DNA of 53,871 nt, from the NCBI GenBank assembly GCA_947088345.1, contig CAMUGE010000018.1, forward strand, positions 1 to 53,871. The letters are read 5' to 3'. Shown piece after piece: positions 6,251-31,406 of this stretch (the stretch's first letter is position 1; each line of letters opens with the position of its first letter). The notes under the pieces were generated by a model. It had not been told where the DNA came from. It ran no database searches and saw only the letters and a program-made list of their open reading frames with translations. Origin of the DNA: an uncultured Roseburia sp. GTDB lineage: Bacteria; Bacillota; Clostridia; Lachnospirales; Lachnospiraceae. The translations under genes and the position numbers were made by a program.

Positions 6251-7009
6251 ATGGCATTACTCGAAGTAAAAAATCTTGGGATTTCGTTTGGCGGACTGCG
6301 TGCAGTAGACGGATTTCATATTTCCATTGAAAAGGGCAGGCTCTATGGTCTGATTGGGCCGAACGGAGCCGGCAAGACGACAGTTTTTAATATGCTGACC
6401 GGTGTGTATACGCCGGACTGTGGCGTAATCAGATTGGACGGGACAGAAATTACCGGAAAAAAGACGATCGACATTAACAAGGCGGGGATTGCACGTACCT
6501 TTCAGAATATTCGTCTGTTTAAAGATCAGTCAGTCCTTGATAACGTAAAAATCGGACTGCACAATGAAATGACATATTCAACGCTGACCGGAATTTTGAG
6601 ACTGCCCAGATACCGAAAAGTGGAAGCGGACATGAACGAAAAGGCGATGGAGCTGTTAAAAGTGTTCCACCTGGATGAAAAAGCGGAGTATCTTTCTTCC
6701 AATCTGCCTTACGGTGACCAGAGAAAACTTGAGATTGCAAGGGCGCTTGCCACGAATCCGAAACTGCTGCTGCTGGATGAGCCGGCGGCTGGGATGAATC
6801 CAAATGAAACAAAAGAACTGATGGAAACGATTCACTTCGTGCGTGATACATTTGATATGACAGTGCTTTTGATCGAGCATGATATGAAGCTTGTCTTCGG
6901 CATCTGTGAGGAGCTGACCGTGCTTAACTTCGGACAGGTGCTGGCAGAAGGCAGTACGAGCAGCGTGTTAAATGACCCGCAGGTAATCAAGGCATATCTT
7001 GGCGAATAG
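6251..7009 (+). CDS. livG: Branched-chain amino acid type ABC transporter ATPase, LivG family
   Basis: 252 residues. Walker A GPNGAGKT is at 36-43, Walker B LLLLDE around 172-177 and the switch histidine at about 210. The signature segment reads LPYGDQRKLEIARAL instead of LSGGQ, which is the hallmark of LivG. The protein powers the LivHM permease together with LivF. Its stop codon at 7007-7009 forms the first three bases of a palindromic repeat, so the repeat array starts exactly at the end of the gene and pushes livF 372 bp away. In most liv operons the two ATPase genes are adjacent or overlapping. Confidence 0.95.
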   Translation: MALLEVKNLGISFGGLRAVDGFHISIEKGRLYGLIGPNGAGKTTVFNMLTGVYTPDCGVIRLDGTEITGKKTIDINKAGIARTFQNIRLFKDQSVLDNVKIGLHNEMTYSTLTGILRLPRYRKVEADMNEKAMELLKVFHLDEKAEYLSSNLPYGDQRKLEIARALATNPKLLLLDEPAAGMNPNETKELMETIHFVRDTFDMTVLLIEHDMKLVFGICEELTVLNFGQVLAEGSTSSVLNDPQVIKAYLGE

Positions 7010-7093
7010 TGTGAGAAGTACTTCTAACCACTCGCAGCAAAGGCGCTAACGCGAAACAGGTTCGCGCGCGAAGAAGTTCTAAGACTCACACTA
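7007..7093 (+). repeat. Palindromic repeat module, long form, copy 1 (diverged)
   Basis: Outer arms TAGTGTGAG (7007-7015) and CTCACACTA (7085-7093), then inner arms AGTACTTCT and AGAAGTTCT, with a CGCGAA/TTCGCG hairpin in the core. It has the same architecture as copies 2-4 but its sequence has drifted while the outer arms stay fully complementary. It includes the livG stop codon. Confidence 0.75.
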
Positions 7094-7150
7094 AGAAATG
7101 CCTGAAATACGGCATTTCTCATCTGGATTTAAGTTGCGGCAGTGCCGCGA
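7094..7150 (+). repeat. Two short hairpins between repeat copies 1 and 2
   Basis: AGAAATGCC (7094-7102) pairs with GGCATTTCT (7111-7119). GTTGCGGCA pairs with TGCCGCGAC at about 7132-7150, with one G-T wobble. The second is followed by CATGTTGGTTAGCG, the linker that also follows the other short hairpins of the array. Confidence 0.65.
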
Positions 7151-7160
7151 CATGTTGGTT

Positions 7161-7244
7161 AGCGTGAAAAGTACTTGTAAGGCTCATGCCAGAGGGCAAA
7201 ACGCGAAACAGGTTCGCGCGCCAACAAGTACTAAGTTTCACGCT
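7161..7244 (+). repeat. Palindromic repeat module, long form, copy 2
   Basis: 84 bp. AGCGTGAAA and TTTCACGCT form the outer arms, AGTACTTGT and ACAAGTACT the inner arms, and CGCGAA ACAGG TTCGCG a central hairpin. It is nearly identical to copies 3 and 4, differing at one or two positions. It lies in the livG-livF gap. Confidence 0.9.
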
Positions 7245-7254
7245 CTGGATATGA

Positions 7255-7306
7255 GATTCCGCAAAGCGGAATCATGGGAGTTAGCGTGAGAAGAGATTCT
7301 AACGCT
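7255..7306 (+). repeat. Short hairpin plus mini-module before livF
   Basis: GATTCCGC AAA GCGGAATC (7255-7273) is followed by the linker ATGGGAGTTAGCGTGA. A mini form of the module then follows: TTAGCGT and AACGCTAA flank only about 13 nt (about 7281-7306), so the long interior of the 84-bp form is missing. Confidence 0.7.
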
Positions 7307-7381
7307 AATGTCTTCCATATGCCTCAAATGCAGTATTTTTGGATTTGTAGTGTCAGGTTATAGAGAAGGAGGAGCCCGGCT

Positions 7382-8092
7382 ATGGCTATGCTGGAAGTAA
7401 AGAATCTTGAAGTATATTATGGAGTGATACAGGCGATCAGGGGAATTTCCTTTGAGGTAAACAAGGGAGAGGTAATTGCATTGATCGGAGCGAATGGGGC
7501 CGGCAAGACGACAACGCTGCAGACAGTCACGGGTATGTTAAAACCTGCAGCCGGAGAAATTATCTTTGAGGGGCAGGATATTTCCAAGGTTGCCGGACAT
7601 AAGATTGTATCCATGGGAATGGCGCATGTGCCGGAGGGCAGACGTGTGTTTGCCGAACTCTCCGTTTATGAAAATCTTCAACTGGGCGCCTATTCCAGAA
7701 AAGACAAAACAGAAATTATGCAGACGCTGGAGAAAGTATACCAGAGCTTTCCGCGTCTTAAGGAGCGCAAAAACCAGCTGGCAGGAACATTGAGCGGCGG
7801 TGAGCAGCAGATGCTTGCAATGGGCAGAGCGCTTATGTCGAAACCAAATATTATCTTGATGGATGAACCGTCCATGGGACTTTCACCGATTCTTGTGGAG
7901 GAGATTTTTAAGATTATTCGCGATATCTCTGCCGGTGGAACGACCGTACTTCTTGTCGAACAGAATGCGAAAAAGGCGCTCGCGGTAGCAGACCGCGCTT
8001 ATGTGTTAGAGACCGGCAGAATTGTCTTGTCGGGAAATGCGAAAGAAATGATGAATGATGATTCGATTAAAAAAGCGTATCTTGGGGAATAG
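7382..8092 (+). CDS. livF: Branched-chain amino acid type ABC transporter ATPase, LivF family
   Basis: 236 residues, with AAGGAGGAG upstream of the start. Walker A GANGAGKT is at 37-44, signature LSGGEQ at 137-142 and Walker B IILMDE at 157-162; HVPEGRRVFAELSVYENL is characteristic of LivF. It forms the ATPase pair with LivG. The interval from livG contains only palindromic repeats and no clear promoter, so livF is probably read from the livH promoter through the structured RNA. That could lower or stabilise its message relative to livG. Its stop codon overlaps the first bases of repeat copy 3. Confidence 0.95.
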   Translation: MAMLEVKNLEVYYGVIQAIRGISFEVNKGEVIALIGANGAGKTTTLQTVTGMLKPAAGEIIFEGQDISKVAGHKIVSMGMAHVPEGRRVFAELSVYENLQLGAYSRKDKTEIMQTLEKVYQSFPRLKERKNQLAGTLSGGEQQMLAMGRALMSKPNIILMDEPSMGLSPILVEEIFKIIRDISAGGTTVLLVEQNAKKALAVADRAYVLETGRIVLSGNAKEMMNDDSIKKAYLGE

Positions 8093-8173
8093 CGTGAAAA
8101 GTACTTGTAATGCTCATGCCAGAGGGCAAAACGCGAAACAGGTTCGCGCGCCAACAAGTACTAAGTTTCACGC
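8091..8173 (+). repeat. Palindromic repeat module, long form, copy 3
   Basis: Same 84-bp unit as copy 2 with only single-base changes; the final base breaks one terminal pair. It begins inside the livF stop codon, just as copy 1 begins inside the livG stop codon. Confidence 0.9.
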
Positions 8174-8175
8174 CA

Positions 8176-8296
8176 GAGAATCCCCGAAAACAGGGGATTC
8201 TCCGCGCAGATTTGAGTCGCGGCAGAGCCGCGACATGGGAGTTAGCGTGAAATTAGAAATTTCACAATCCTGATTTGTATGCCCGCCAAAGCGGGC
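8176..8296 (+). repeat. Run of four short hairpins between repeat copies 3 and 4
   Basis: GAGAATCCCC/GGGGATTCTC (8176-8185 and 8193-8202); GTCGCGGC AGA GCCGCGAC (8216-8234); GTGAAATT with AATTTCAC (8247-8265), a mini-module starting in the linker GTTAGCGTGA; and GCCCGC CAAA GCGGGC (8281-8296). The stems differ in sequence but every one is fully paired. Confidence 0.8.
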
Positions 8297-8307
8297 GCAT
8301 GGGAGTT

Positions 8308-8391
8308 AGCGTGAAAAGTACTTGTAATGCTCATGCCAGAGGGCAAAACGCGAAACAGGTTCGCGCGCCAACAAGTACTAAGTTTCACGCT
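8308..8391 (+). repeat. Palindromic repeat module, long form, copy 4
   Basis: 84 bp, differing from copy 3 only at the last base. It is preceded by the linker CATGGGAGTTAGCG. Confidence 0.9.
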
Positions 8392-8401
8392 CTTGATTTG
8401 A

Positions 8402-8485
8402 GATTCCGCAAAGCGGAAATCATATTGGTTAGCGGGAAATAAGAAATATCGCGATTCTGAAAAAGAATACCCGCCAAAACGGGCG
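8402..8485 (+). repeat. Terminal short hairpins of the repeat array
   Basis: GATTCCGC AAA GCGGAAATC (8402-8421) is the same hairpin as at 7255 with one inserted A. It is followed by the linker ATATTGGTTAGCG, a degraded mini-module (GCGGGAAAT...ATCGCG) and a CCCG/CGGG hairpin at about 8470-8485. The array then fades before the next gene. Confidence 0.65.
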
Positions 8486-8553
8486 AATGAGAGTTAGAAT
8501 GAGATTTTGTCTTGCGAAATCAGATAGATTAGCTGATCAGACGGAGGATATGT

Positions 8554-9180
8554 ATGAAGAAAACAGTGATTACGATTGCGAGAAGTTATGGGAGCGGCGG
8601 CCGTACGTTGGGTAAATTGCTGGCGCAGCGGCTTGGAATCAATTTTTATGACAGAGAGATTTTAAGAATGGCGTCGGACGAGAGCGGAATTAACGAGGCG
8701 TTGTTTGCGCAGGCGGATGAGCGTTTAAAGCGTTCTCCGCTTTTCTCCATTATTAAAAGGGAGCCATACCATGGCAGTATAATACGGCCTGAGAGCGCCG
8801 ATTTTGTGTCGGATGATAATCTGTTTAATTATCAGGCTAAAGTAATACGGGAGTTGGCTGCGGAGGAGTCCTGCATAATTATTGGCAGATGTGCCGATTA
8901 CATTTTGAAAGGACAGCCGGATGTGACACGTCTTTATTTTTATGCACCAATGGAGGATTGCATTGTCAGGGTGAAAGATCAGGTCGGGCTTTCGGAGAAA
9001 GAGGCCGTGAAGCGGATTGAGAAGACAGATAAATATCGTGCAGATTATTATAAATTTTACACCGGAAGAGACTGGAACGATACCAGAAATTATGATGTGT
9101 GTCTAAATACCGTCAGTATGGATTATGCAAAATTAATAGAAGTTGTGGAAAAAATACTCGAAATTCGTCAGATTTTATAA
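8554..9180 (+). CDS. Cytidylate kinase-like family protein
   Basis: 208 residues. GGAGG (8543-8547) precedes the ATG by 6 nt. The N-terminal TIARSYGSGGRTLGKLLAQ is the P-loop-like nucleotide-binding segment of the cytidylate kinase 2 family (PF13189), followed by INFYDREILRMASDESGI and a central CIIIGRCADYIL. The family is widespread in Clostridia and often linked to transporters or CBS domains. Its real substrate is not established, and the canonical cmk gene is a different family. It stands alone after the repeat array, with no partner gene. Confidence 0.85.
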   Translation: MKKTVITIARSYGSGGRTLGKLLAQRLGINFYDREILRMASDESGINEALFAQADERLKRSPLFSIIKREPYHGSIIRPESADFVSDDNLFNYQAKVIRELAAEESCIIIGRCADYILKGQPDVTRLYFYAPMEDCIVRVKDQVGLSEKEAVKRIEKTDKYRADYYKFYTGRDWNDTRNYDVCLNTVSMDYAKLIEVVEKILEIRQIL

Positions 9181-29479: not shown

Positions 29480-29520
29480 TTGCTATATAGAAACACATGT
29501 TTTTGAAAGGATGGTGTCAT

Positions 29521-31215
29521 GTGTCAGGAAAAGCAGCATCAATTTTGGCGGACTTGTCAATAGAACGTATCGGTGAGATGATAGATCTTTTCAGCCCGAG
29601 TATGGATGATTTTCTCTATGTATGGGATATGAAAGCCGATTATTATCAGATTTCGTCAACAGCGGCGGAACGGTTTTGTATGCCGGCGGATCGTTTTCAT
29701 CAGGTCGATGAAGTTTTTAAAGCTCTTATATATCCGGAGGATTATAATGATCTGATGGAGGATCTAAACAGTGTTTCGTCCGGAGAGAAAGACGAACACA
29801 ACATGGAATATCGGTGGGTGGATCATAACCAGCTGCCTGTCTGGATAAACTGCAGGGGGCTTGCCCTGCGGGATGAGGATGGCAGCCCGCATTTTCTGAT
29901 CGGCTGTATCAACGAAATCGGAAAAAAGCAGAAAGCCGACAATGTCAGCGGATTGTTGGGACAGTTAAGTCTCAAAAAGGAGTTTGAAGCTGCATCGACT
30001 GGCAGAACCGGGTTTATTCTGCGAATTGGAATCGATGATTTTCGCGATATCAATGAAAATATGGGAATTGAATATGGAGATTATATATTGCGCAAAACGG
30101 CGGAATGTATCTCTGAAAACATTACAGATTCACAACAGCATTTTCGTGTTGTTGCAGACGAGTTTGCGATTACTGATTTGTGCGGCGGCAGCATAGAGAA
30201 GGCTGTGGCTTTGTATGGGCGTCTTTGCGCCTCCATTACGTCGTTTATTCAAAAAAACCATTATGAAGTTGTATATACGATTTCGGGAGGGGTTTTTCCG
30301 CTTGACGGAAGCGAGATTTCCTATCAGGAAATGATGACACTGTCGGAATTTGCATTGAGCGAAGCAAAACGCGGCGGCAAAAATACCTGTAAAGTTTTTG
30401 ATTCGGATAACTATGAGAAGTACAAACAGAGAAAAGAACTGGGGCGTATTTTGTATCATGCGGTAAAAGACGGTTTTAAAGGTTTTGAAGCATATTTCCA
30501 GCCGCTCGTCAATGCGCTCGACGGTAAGCTCAGCGGGGCGGAGGCGCTGCTTCGCTACCGCACGCCGGACGGGAATATGGTATCGCCCGGGATTGTGATT
30601 CCGATTCTGGAAGAGTCGGGACTGATTATTCCGGTTGGCCACTGGATTTTAAGGCAGGCAGCGGATGCGTGCAGGGAGTGGCAGAATTATATTCCGGAAT
30701 TTAAGGTCAATGTCAATCTCTCCTATGTACAGGTGTTAAAGAGCAATGTTTTAGAGGAAATCAAGGGAGTGGTCGCAGAGTACGGACTTAGTTCCAAAAG
30801 TGTATGTATTGAGCTTACGGAGAGCGGATTTTTGGAAACAAACCCGCATTTTGCAAGCGTCTGGAACGGGTTAAAGGAGTATGGCATTCTGCTTGCGCTT
30901 GACGACTTCGGGACAGGCTATTCTAATCTGCACTGTCTGTCAGATTTAAAGCCTGCGTTTGTAAAGCTTGATCGAACCTTTATGATGAAAGCGCTGAGAC
31001 AGGAATATGAATATCAGCTGCTGGTACATGTGGTAGAGATGGCGCATACGCTCGGCCTTTCCGTATGTGCGGAGGGGATTGAGAATGAAGAGGAGCTGAT
31101 TCGGGTGCGCAGTGTGGAACCGGATTATATACAGGGTTACTTTTTTGGAAAGCCATGCGACAGAAATGAATTTTTTCAGAAGTTTTTTGCAAGGGAAAGC
31201 ATTGCTGCATCGTAG
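29521..31215 (+). CDS. PAS-GGDEF-EAL protein, probable cyclic di-GMP phosphodiesterase
   Basis: 564 residues from the GTG at 29521, with AAAGGA nine bases upstream. An ATG at 29497 is possible but has no ribosome binding site. Residues about 30-135 are PAS-like (DDFLYVWDMKADYYQIS). The GGDEF domain (about 140-300) is degenerate: the signature reads VVADEF instead of GGDEF, so cyclase activity is unlikely. The EAL domain (about 315-560) looks complete: GAEALLRYR, NVNLSYVQ, ELTESGF, LDDFGTGYSN, KLDR, EGIEN and QGYFFGKP keep the metal and catalytic residues. It has no membrane span. Expected role: hydrolysis of cyclic di-GMP under control of the PAS and degenerate GGDEF regions. Confidence 0.92.
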   Translation: MSGKAASILADLSIERIGEMIDLFSPSMDDFLYVWDMKADYYQISSTAAERFCMPADRFHQVDEVFKALIYPEDYNDLMEDLNSVSSGEKDEHNMEYRWVDHNQLPVWINCRGLALRDEDGSPHFLIGCINEIGKKQKADNVSGLLGQLSLKKEFEAASTGRTGFILRIGIDDFRDINENMGIEYGDYILRKTAECISENITDSQQHFRVVADEFAITDLCGGSIEKAVALYGRLCASITSFIQKNHYEVVYTISGGVFPLDGSEISYQEMMTLSEFALSEAKRGGKNTCKVFDSDNYEKYKQRKELGRILYHAVKDGFKGFEAYFQPLVNALDGKLSGAEALLRYRTPDGNMVSPGIVIPILEESGLIIPVGHWILRQAADACREWQNYIPEFKVNVNLSYVQVLKSNVLEEIKGVVAEYGLSSKSVCIELTESGFLETNPHFASVWNGLKEYGILLALDDFGTGYSNLHCLSDLKPAFVKLDRTFMMKALRQEYEYQLLVHVVEMAHTLGLSVCAEGIENEEELIRVRSVEPDYIQGYFFGKPCDRNEFFQKFFARESIAAS

Positions 31216-31274
31216 CGTGAAAGGCATGTTTAAAACTTATGCCAATGGACAGATCGTGAAAGATTTCGCACGCT
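31213..31274 (+). repeat. Palindromic element at the end of the EAL gene, probable relative of the livG-livF array
   Basis: AGCGTG (31214-31219) and CACGCT (31269-31274) form outer arms. Inside are GGCAT/ATGCC and an ATCGTGAAAGATTTCGCACG stem region. Like the array copies at 7007 and 8091, it starts within the stop codon of the preceding gene and uses AGCGTGAAA as its left end. Confidence 0.55.
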
Positions 31275-31406
31275 GAACAGACTGATTTTTAGGAGGAAAA
31301 ATGTTTGAAATACAGCGTTTTTCATAGTAGTCTGAGATTGCGCAAGCGGGATTGCCAAAGTCGGAGCTGGACAGGAAGCAGGACAGAACAGATAGGGAAA
31401 GGAATG

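Follow-up and report, generated by a model that had tools for sequence, protein, structure and literature searches.

The window analysed here is a stretch of 53,871 nucleotides from an uncultured Roseburia sp. (assembly GCA_947088345.1, contig CAMUGE010000018.1), and between its positions 7009 and 8497 it carries two arrays of hairpin-forming repeats, one 3' of a livG-like gene and one 3' of the livF-like gene that follows. The first array runs from the livG-like stop codon to a point upstream of livF, and the second from the livF stop codon to a point upstream of a gene for which NCBIfam gives only a weak (d)CMP kinase match. The repeat unit recurs across genomes, has a covarying structure, lies in sense orientation at stop codons with a G-rich-plus-TA motif on its left, and is present or absent at orthologous sites. 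From this pattern we infer a mechanism of insertion, and we conclude that the units probably form a family of small non-autonomous mobile hairpin elements, mainly of one bacterial family (Roseburia and its relatives).

Each unit begins with a long hairpin (H1), which a shorter one (H2) often follows; then come a hairpin H3 and a linker (for example ATGGGAGTTAG), and the final G of the linker is the opening base of the next unit. Of the linkers in the two arrays, three read ATGGGAGTTAG, and the others read ATGTTGGTTAG, ATATTGGTTAG and ATGAGAGTTAG. Matches to H1 were scored with a covariance model, R1, built from 23 short units of nine genomes, and folding is given as an RNA fold z-score (z). 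The features are as follows.

6251..7009, + strand: livG-like gene, top NCBIfam match LivG at 292 bits, cut-off of 362 not reached; TAG stop at 7007-7009, its G being base 1 of unit 1
7009..7091, + strand: long hairpin H1 of unit 1, second subtype K2; R1 41.5 bits, z -2.33
7094..7119, + strand: hairpin H2 of unit 1, arms AGAAATGCC/GGCATTTCT; by fold and pairing check
7133..7151, + strand: hairpin H3 of unit 1, arms GTTGCGGC/GCCGCGAC; by fold and pairing check
7152..7162, + strand: linker ATGTTGGTTAG, its last G being base 1 of unit 2
7162..7243, + strand: long hairpin H1 of unit 2, main subtype K1, three-way junction form; R1 61 bits, z -5.96
7255..7273, + strand: hairpin H3 of unit 2, arms GATTCCGC/GCGGAATC; by pairing check
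7274..7310, + strand: ATGGGAGTTAG linker, then the truncated beginning of another unit (CGTGAGAAGAGATTCTAACGC...); by sequence
7382..8092, + strand: livF-like gene, top NCBIfam match LivF, below cut-off; TAG stop, its G common with unit 3
8092..8173, + strand: long hairpin H1 (K1) of unit 3; R1 57.8 bits, z -5.16
8176..8202, + strand: hairpin H2 of unit 3, arms GAGAATCCCC/GGGGATTCTC; by fold and pairing check
8216..8234, + strand: hairpin H3 of unit 3, arms GTCGCGGC/GCCGCGAC; by fold and pairing check
8235..8245, + strand: linker ATGGGAGTTAG; by sequence
8245..8309, + strand: mini unit of a GTGAAATTAGAAATTTCAC hairpin (8247-8265), a GCCCGCCAAAGCGGGC hairpin (8281-8296) and linker ATGGGAGTTAG; z -4.21
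8309..8390, + strand: long hairpin H1 (K1) of unit 4; R1 57.8 bits
8402..8421, + strand: hairpin H3 of unit 4, arms GATTCCGC/GCGGAAATC, one extra A in the stem; by pairing check
8422..8432, + strand: linker ATATTGGTTAG; by sequence
8432..8497, + strand: second mini unit, decayed, with linker ATGAGAGTTAG at 8487-8497; z -1.47 for 8432-8498
31213..31275, + strand: further decayed H1, outside both arrays; R1 22.5 bits, E = 0.0048, z -2.46

The long palindromes at 8092-8173 and 8309-8390 are identical, that at 7162-7243 differs from both by one base, and the first (7009-7091) is about 76% identical to the other three. The preliminary description, made from the sequence alone, had reported four such copies, three of them near-identical, together with at least eight short hairpins, a mini form of the unit and a modular, mix-and-match layout, and all of this is borne out: pairing was checked in nine short hairpins (including a 4-bp stem at 8470-8483), and the mini form occurs at 8245-8309 and, decayed, at 8432-8497. 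It had also described the array as split by livF; the left edge is at 7009, the G of the livG stop codon, and the right edge lies at 8497, slightly beyond the end it gave at 8485. The canonical H1 is about 64 nucleotides long, and the 84-bp palindromes of the window are H1 with an extra apical arm, the three near-identical copies folding into a stem with a 3-nucleotide AAG bulge and two apical hairpins. When the modules were folded, z was -5.2 to -6.0 for the three near-identical long units and -2.3 for the first; three of four short-module stretches gave -4.1 to -5.3, and the last (8432-8498) gave -1.5. In a scan of 6900-8600 for terminators, 5 sites resembling them turned up where shuffles gave 1.5. 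The only one of these within the arrays and on their sense strand is H3 at 7133-7151, which has a weak tail, and intrinsic terminators were rejected as the nature of the arrays. The decayed H1 at 31213-31275 sits on the TAG stop of a GGDEF/EAL-like gene (29497-31215), in which NCBIfam GGDEF scores above its cut-off and EAL-type names below theirs; to the right of this H1 are possible H2 and H3 remnants.

The preliminary description had left it to a wider search whether the units occur only here, and they proved to be genome-wide and present also in relatives. When one unit was used as a BLAST query, 40 of 68 candidates in the own genome were scored and at least 51 places found, and R1 found at least 87 matches there (150 of 1134 first-look candidates scored). 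The surveys of genus, family and class used stricter filters than the own-genome search, and the best candidates per genome were scored; R1 matches were present in at least 18 of 62 genomes of the genus, in at least 31 of 397 genomes and 26 of 334 genera of the family (own genome included), and in at least 6 of 391 genomes of the class, four of these being from the same family. In genome G763, which belongs to a different family of the class, there are two convincing copies with H2 (L189, L192), a possible case of horizontal transfer, and G537, from another family, has one weak R1 match. In G399 (L121 and other places) a 60-nucleotide subfamily with a different apex gave at least 13 matches, many of them equal in score. 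An exact 21-mer match in a Rudaea record (L040) was by eye without a hairpin and was taken as chance. Rfam 15 gave no match in the window at gathering score, and in 9 + 15 further loci, searched with E-value thresholds, it gave only S35 and a T-box, both below gathering, the T-box match being about 660 bases away from the unit. No paper on this hairpin element was found by title or start of abstract in the open-access literature.

The core unit is an H1 of the form G-YGTGARA...TYTCACR-C plus H2, and the units of the own genome add H3 and a 3' end like ATGGRRGTTA. Covariation was counted in 25 base pairs of H1. Among the 23 short units, 12 of the 25 pairs show two-sided change (9.2 in shuffles), and the cells number 67, where shuffles give 20.2 and slid controls no more than 4; further pair types stay at shuffle level. 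With one unit per genome from 34 genomes, 20 of 25 pairs are two-sided, the cells numbering 140 (45.2 in shuffles, no more than 19 in slid controls), and further pair types number 40 against 36.5, a level reached by 42 of 500 shuffles. This set was drawn from 45 genomes with fetched units and leans to well-paired ones, since the 11 genomes omitted (G022, G041, G063, G071, G167, G194, G243, G288, G312, G395, G537) have mostly weaker or odd-length copies. All 150 aligned matches give 22 of 25 pairs and 479 cells against 143.7 shuffled and at most 55 slid, in an alignment that was fitted to R1, and so is biased to the model, and that includes weak matches and about 16 antisense duplicates. Relatedness stays in the shuffle control, and the slid control removes part of it. 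Of 127 units, 99 have a perfect stem of at least 8 within 75 nucleotides after H1, a feature shared by 17 among 500 control windows; in the units this stem is H2, or H3 where H2 is missing, and it has 51 distinct arms, some differing by register only. The unpaired parts of H1 (the AAG bulge and a TC/TTC loop) are conserved in the 64- to 65-nucleotide forms.

The preliminary description had taken compensating stem changes as a sign of selection on RNA or single-stranded DNA structure. The stems do covary, far above both the shuffled and the slid controls, and to that extent it stands; selection on RNA is not implied. G.U accounts for 65 cells and A.C for 46 (206 and 192 in shuffles), and since G.U is hardly above A.C the data do not favour RNA over single-stranded DNA as the paired form. 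Selection on a DNA hairpin, correction of palindromes or amplification of subfamilies fits the covariation as well as RNA selection does.

The first reading had missed the sense position at stop codons, the Shine-Dalgarno-like motif on both sides of the units and their presence or absence between relatives. The loci fetched for study were chosen as the best-scoring matches rather than at random, and their genes were taken to be the longest frames. These loci contain 153 R1 matches, of which 19 weaker ones on the opposite strand at the same place were removed, and the 134 kept are the basis of the counts of neighbour-gene orientation and left flanks. Six doubtful loci of one unit each (L119, L129, L130, L132, L134, L136) stay in these counts and are excluded from those of stop distance and small frames. 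Both neighbouring genes are in sense in 78 of 107 arrays; 12 arrays lie between a sense gene and an opposing one, 8 between divergent genes, 4 are antisense to both neighbours and 5 have no neighbour on one side. Where there is an upstream gene it is in sense in 93 of 105 arrays. An open reading frame of at least 80 codons ends near the unit in 68 of the 103 arrays re-examined. In 53 of these 68 the last base of the stop codon is at most 5 nucleotides from the unit start, and in 33 the stop is a TAG whose G is base 1 of H1 (a TA/G junction). TAG makes up 39 of the 68 stops at arrays, against 13 of 77 in other frames of the own genome and 53 of 224 in a wider background.

A G-rich motif precedes the junction. 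Among 108 left flanks classed as external, by a pattern that lets in a few ends of older units, 70 carry G at -7 and 99 carry A at -1. Purely coding flanks up to TAG were counted apart from such ends (n = 29; distinct in their last ten residues, a few homologous), and here G is at -7 in 20 of 29 against 44 of 224 other genes, with GG at -8 and -7 in 10 of 29 against 22 of 224. This G-rich-then-TA flank resembles the unit's own right end, as seen at internal junctions, and by a pattern rule the right end is the Shine-Dalgarno (SD) sequence of the next gene in 18 of 89 arrays.

Other sequences were seen beside the units. A terminal module (GGCGATTTGTGTC...TGCGAACTGCGTTCGCAATGCAGAAATGGGGATTATT and variants) with an SD directly 5' of start codons is found at L009, L012, L023, L026, L031, L032, L035 and L037. 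A conserved module of about 150 nucleotides (GTGAACTTGTTCACGTTGGCTATATTGTGCCGAGAACGTCACAAAT...GTTCTCGG) follows the arrays at L025 (own genome), L055 and L064 (G032, a close relative); it looks like a complex structured RNA and has no Rfam match up to E 0.5. At L119 (G194) the outer stem of a unit-like match shares sequence with the 3' end of the adjoining tRNA-like gene, recognised by eye.

At the livG-livF locus arrays are present in 2 of the 16 loci examined, which are the matches over most of the livG query (33 of 62 genomes matched). In the other 14 loci R1 found nothing up to E = 1, and the gap between the two genes is 4 to 74 nucleotides in 13 and about 140 in one, where the start is not clear. 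The gap in G032, measured to an early ATG, is at least 272. The end of livG reads GGNGRRTA in 13 of the 14 array-free relatives, and the same letters code for a conserved protein end. Sixteen flanks of own-genome sites were also sought in G032, and 15 were found. Five sites are cleanly empty there (the second site of L012, L025, L027, L035, L037), two are empty but for TAGTGTGA (L016, L020), two have other sequence and no element (L015, L026), three hold remnants (L010, L018, L028) and three are filled (L019, L022, L033). The empty sites indicate gain or loss of the element. At five of these seven empty sites there is a G-rich motif (GGGAATA, GGAGGATT, GGAGGATTA, GGCGGTTA or GGGAGAAGTA), and at L012, L025 and, less clearly, L037 the left edge resembles an old SD while the right edge carries the SD of the array. 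TA or TTA is common to both edges at several sites, but the right end has a TTA of its own.

Position, orientation, the target-like left motif and presence or absence at orthologous sites all fit a mobile hairpin element. Such an element would insert directionally, 3' of a Shine-Dalgarno-like GGRRNTA, and the GGRRNTA-like motif at its own right end would be regenerated at the 3' end on insertion. A later copy could then enter at the right end of an earlier one, giving head-to-tail arrays. The right end could also re-supply a ribosome-binding site for the next gene, and insertion into an operon would therefore do little harm. The structure may be kept because the mobilising machinery recognises the hairpin, as single-stranded DNA or RNA, with subfamilies re-amplifying, and any effects on the folding or decay of messenger RNA would be secondary. 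A bolder proposal, which we put forward only tentatively, is that this could be a new kind of mobile element homing on translation signals: one that enters operons 3' of a Shine-Dalgarno-like/stop-codon sequence, nearly always in sense, and restores this signal with its own 3' end. A single-stranded hairpin, of RNA or DNA, would be the form in which it moves, and the enzyme would belong to none of the Y1, IS110 and inverted-repeat transposases.

Several observations weigh against mobility. The data are of presence and absence between species, without an observed insertion event, and some of the empty sites could be losses; TAGTGTGA, at two of them, resembles a deletion scar. Two of the seven, L027 and L035, have no G-rich motif at the edge, and a target-site duplication could not be fixed at the sites compared. 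It speaks for mobility that at six of seven shared sites the units are closer to the best own-genome copy (identity 0.75-1.00) than to the ortholog (0.47-0.83), so that these sites may have been re-invaded or converted, but the own-genome value is a maximum over many copies and is favoured over a single ortholog; L019 is the exception, and at L033 a contig end truncates the ortholog. The start of the downstream gene falls outside the linker rule in 71 of 89 loci. Further pair types are clearly above shuffles in the 150-match set and not in the 23-unit and 34-genome sets. No copy was found in viral contigs by two exact patterns, or in plasmids and phages by one query each. The Y1 transposase (PF01797) was not detected in the own genome (about 90% complete) or in G032 (about 87%); of 12 high-copy genomes, 7 likewise gave no match and 5 have one or more. 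IS110-type transposases also went undetected in 7 of the 12, and neither type was retained as a common partner. ABC ATPases, at 8 loci, and one unnamed family, at 4, are the only recurrent neighbours of the arrays, and a recurrent neighbour gene was rejected as the mobiliser; other neighbour clusters of at least 3 loci, among the 25 clusters listed, are frames inside arrays or largely shared sites.

The main rival to a mobile element is a regulatory RNA coupled to terminating ribosomes, a cis-acting operon device that we consider possible, if unlikely. In this reading an SD-like run heads the unit, followed by a stop codon that a GTG overlaps (GGRRNTAGYGTGARA); terminating ribosomes would reinitiate and melt H1, H1 and H2 would set the translation or decay of the flanking genes, and selection at every gene junction would maintain the copies. 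The sense orientation and stop-codon spacing across unrelated genes and genera agree with this, as do the G-rich motif at SD spacing from the GTG, the covarying structure and a GTG...TAA frame of 17 codons that is present in 26 of the 35 listed units that start with GTG and are 65 nucleotides long. However, the small frame differs in the 66-nucleotide, 60-nucleotide and other subfamilies, G.U cells hardly outnumber A.C mismatches, and sites are gained or lost between close species. A unit-borne small peptide or frame was rejected as a general feature, as the frame changes with subfamily length (25 commonest classes) and 18 units lack the GTG. A selfish element and a regulatory RNA may both be involved, the former having been co-opted as the latter.

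Somewhat less probable again are purely passive repeats, that is, palindromes spread by recombination and by template switching at the replication fork, in which correction of imperfect palindromes would mimic covariation and the position at stop codons would reflect tolerated insertions only. The few wobble intermediates, the greater likeness among own-genome copies than between orthologs at the shared sites, and the variation of array length between relatives are in keeping with such a process. Tolerance alone, however, does not yield an exact TA/G junction in 33 of 68 arrays, a G-rich left motif within coding sequence or a sense bias of 78 to 4, and palindrome correction leaves the conserved AAG bulge and TC/TTC loop unexplained. 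Very improbable, finally, are REP-like elements moved by a Y1 transposase (IS200/IS605, RAYT) encoded elsewhere in the genome: IS200/IS605 elements share end hairpins, a lack of terminal inverted repeats and a short fixed target motif, and our units, with hairpins close to either end, likewise lack terminal inverted repeats, show no clear target duplication and have an insertion point adjoining a short fixed motif, but PF01797 is undetected in the own genome, in G032 and in most of the high-copy genomes.

Known repeat families were compared from parts of five publications (PMC3049150, PMC3733652, PMC2229807, PMC2734929, PMC11109978), and BOX, REP/RAYT and typical miniature inverted-repeat transposable elements (MITEs) fit badly. 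The preliminary description had likened the layout to the BOX elements of streptococci, which are described as short modular intergenic repeats with stem-loops and variable internal modules, proposed to be parasitic, which can be co-transcribed with operons, have terminal inverted repeats and target duplications, and are over-represented between convergent genes (PMC3049150). The modular stem-loops with variable internal modules, the possible co-transcription with operons and the proposed parasitic nature are indeed shared, but the likeness does not appear to go further: our copies lie mostly in sense, at stop codons and between co-directional genes, and no terminal inverted repeats were seen, the left GYGTGARA and right ATGGRRGTTA not being inverted copies by eye. 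With MITEs the units share presence or absence at orthologous sites.

The MIRU of mycobacteria stand as tandem direct repeats between genes that, in relatives lacking them, are a few bases apart (PMC2734929), and the present arrays are like them in this. MIRU are also said to contain small frames that overlap stop and start codons, with the polarity of the flanking operon genes; our arrays share the polarity (78 of 107 between co-directional sense genes, 4 antisense), but it is the covarying hairpin, and not a small frame, that is conserved across the 65-, 66- and 60-nucleotide subfamilies. REP/BIME with RAYT, and the GTAG- and CGTC-tagged palindromes, are high-copy extragenic palindromes with a fixed short end motif (PMC3733652). 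Our units resemble them in being high-copy, palindromic and extragenic with a fixed short motif at one end, and differ in the undetected Y1 gene of the two best genomes, in the edge motif GGRRNTA and in running head to tail where REP/BIME alternate. The MRSC-65-2 motif, judged selfish, is multi-copy with a long covarying stem, as here, and has a UYCCGG repeat (PMC11109978) that is absent from the H1 consensus. The Staphylococcus small RNA S35 (Rfam RF02894) is, like our arrays, a series of hairpins and gave a weak full-length match to two of them, on the antisense strand and at 26.5 and 20.1 bits, where the gathering score is 69; homology is not claimed. Such a sub-threshold match, full-length and antisense, lies at 1633-1853 of L026.

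Small interspersed repeats of bacteria are mostly viewed as intergenic litter, and here such a repeat has a precise address at the ends of genes. In dozens of genomes, nearly all of one family, it shows strong base-pair covariation, and in some of these genomes it has a ribosome-binding motif at the end of the unit. The element points to a mobilising enzyme, and its copies put dozens of hairpins into the messages of gut bacteria. It gives an opportunity to study how a selfish element can sit in operons without doing harm.

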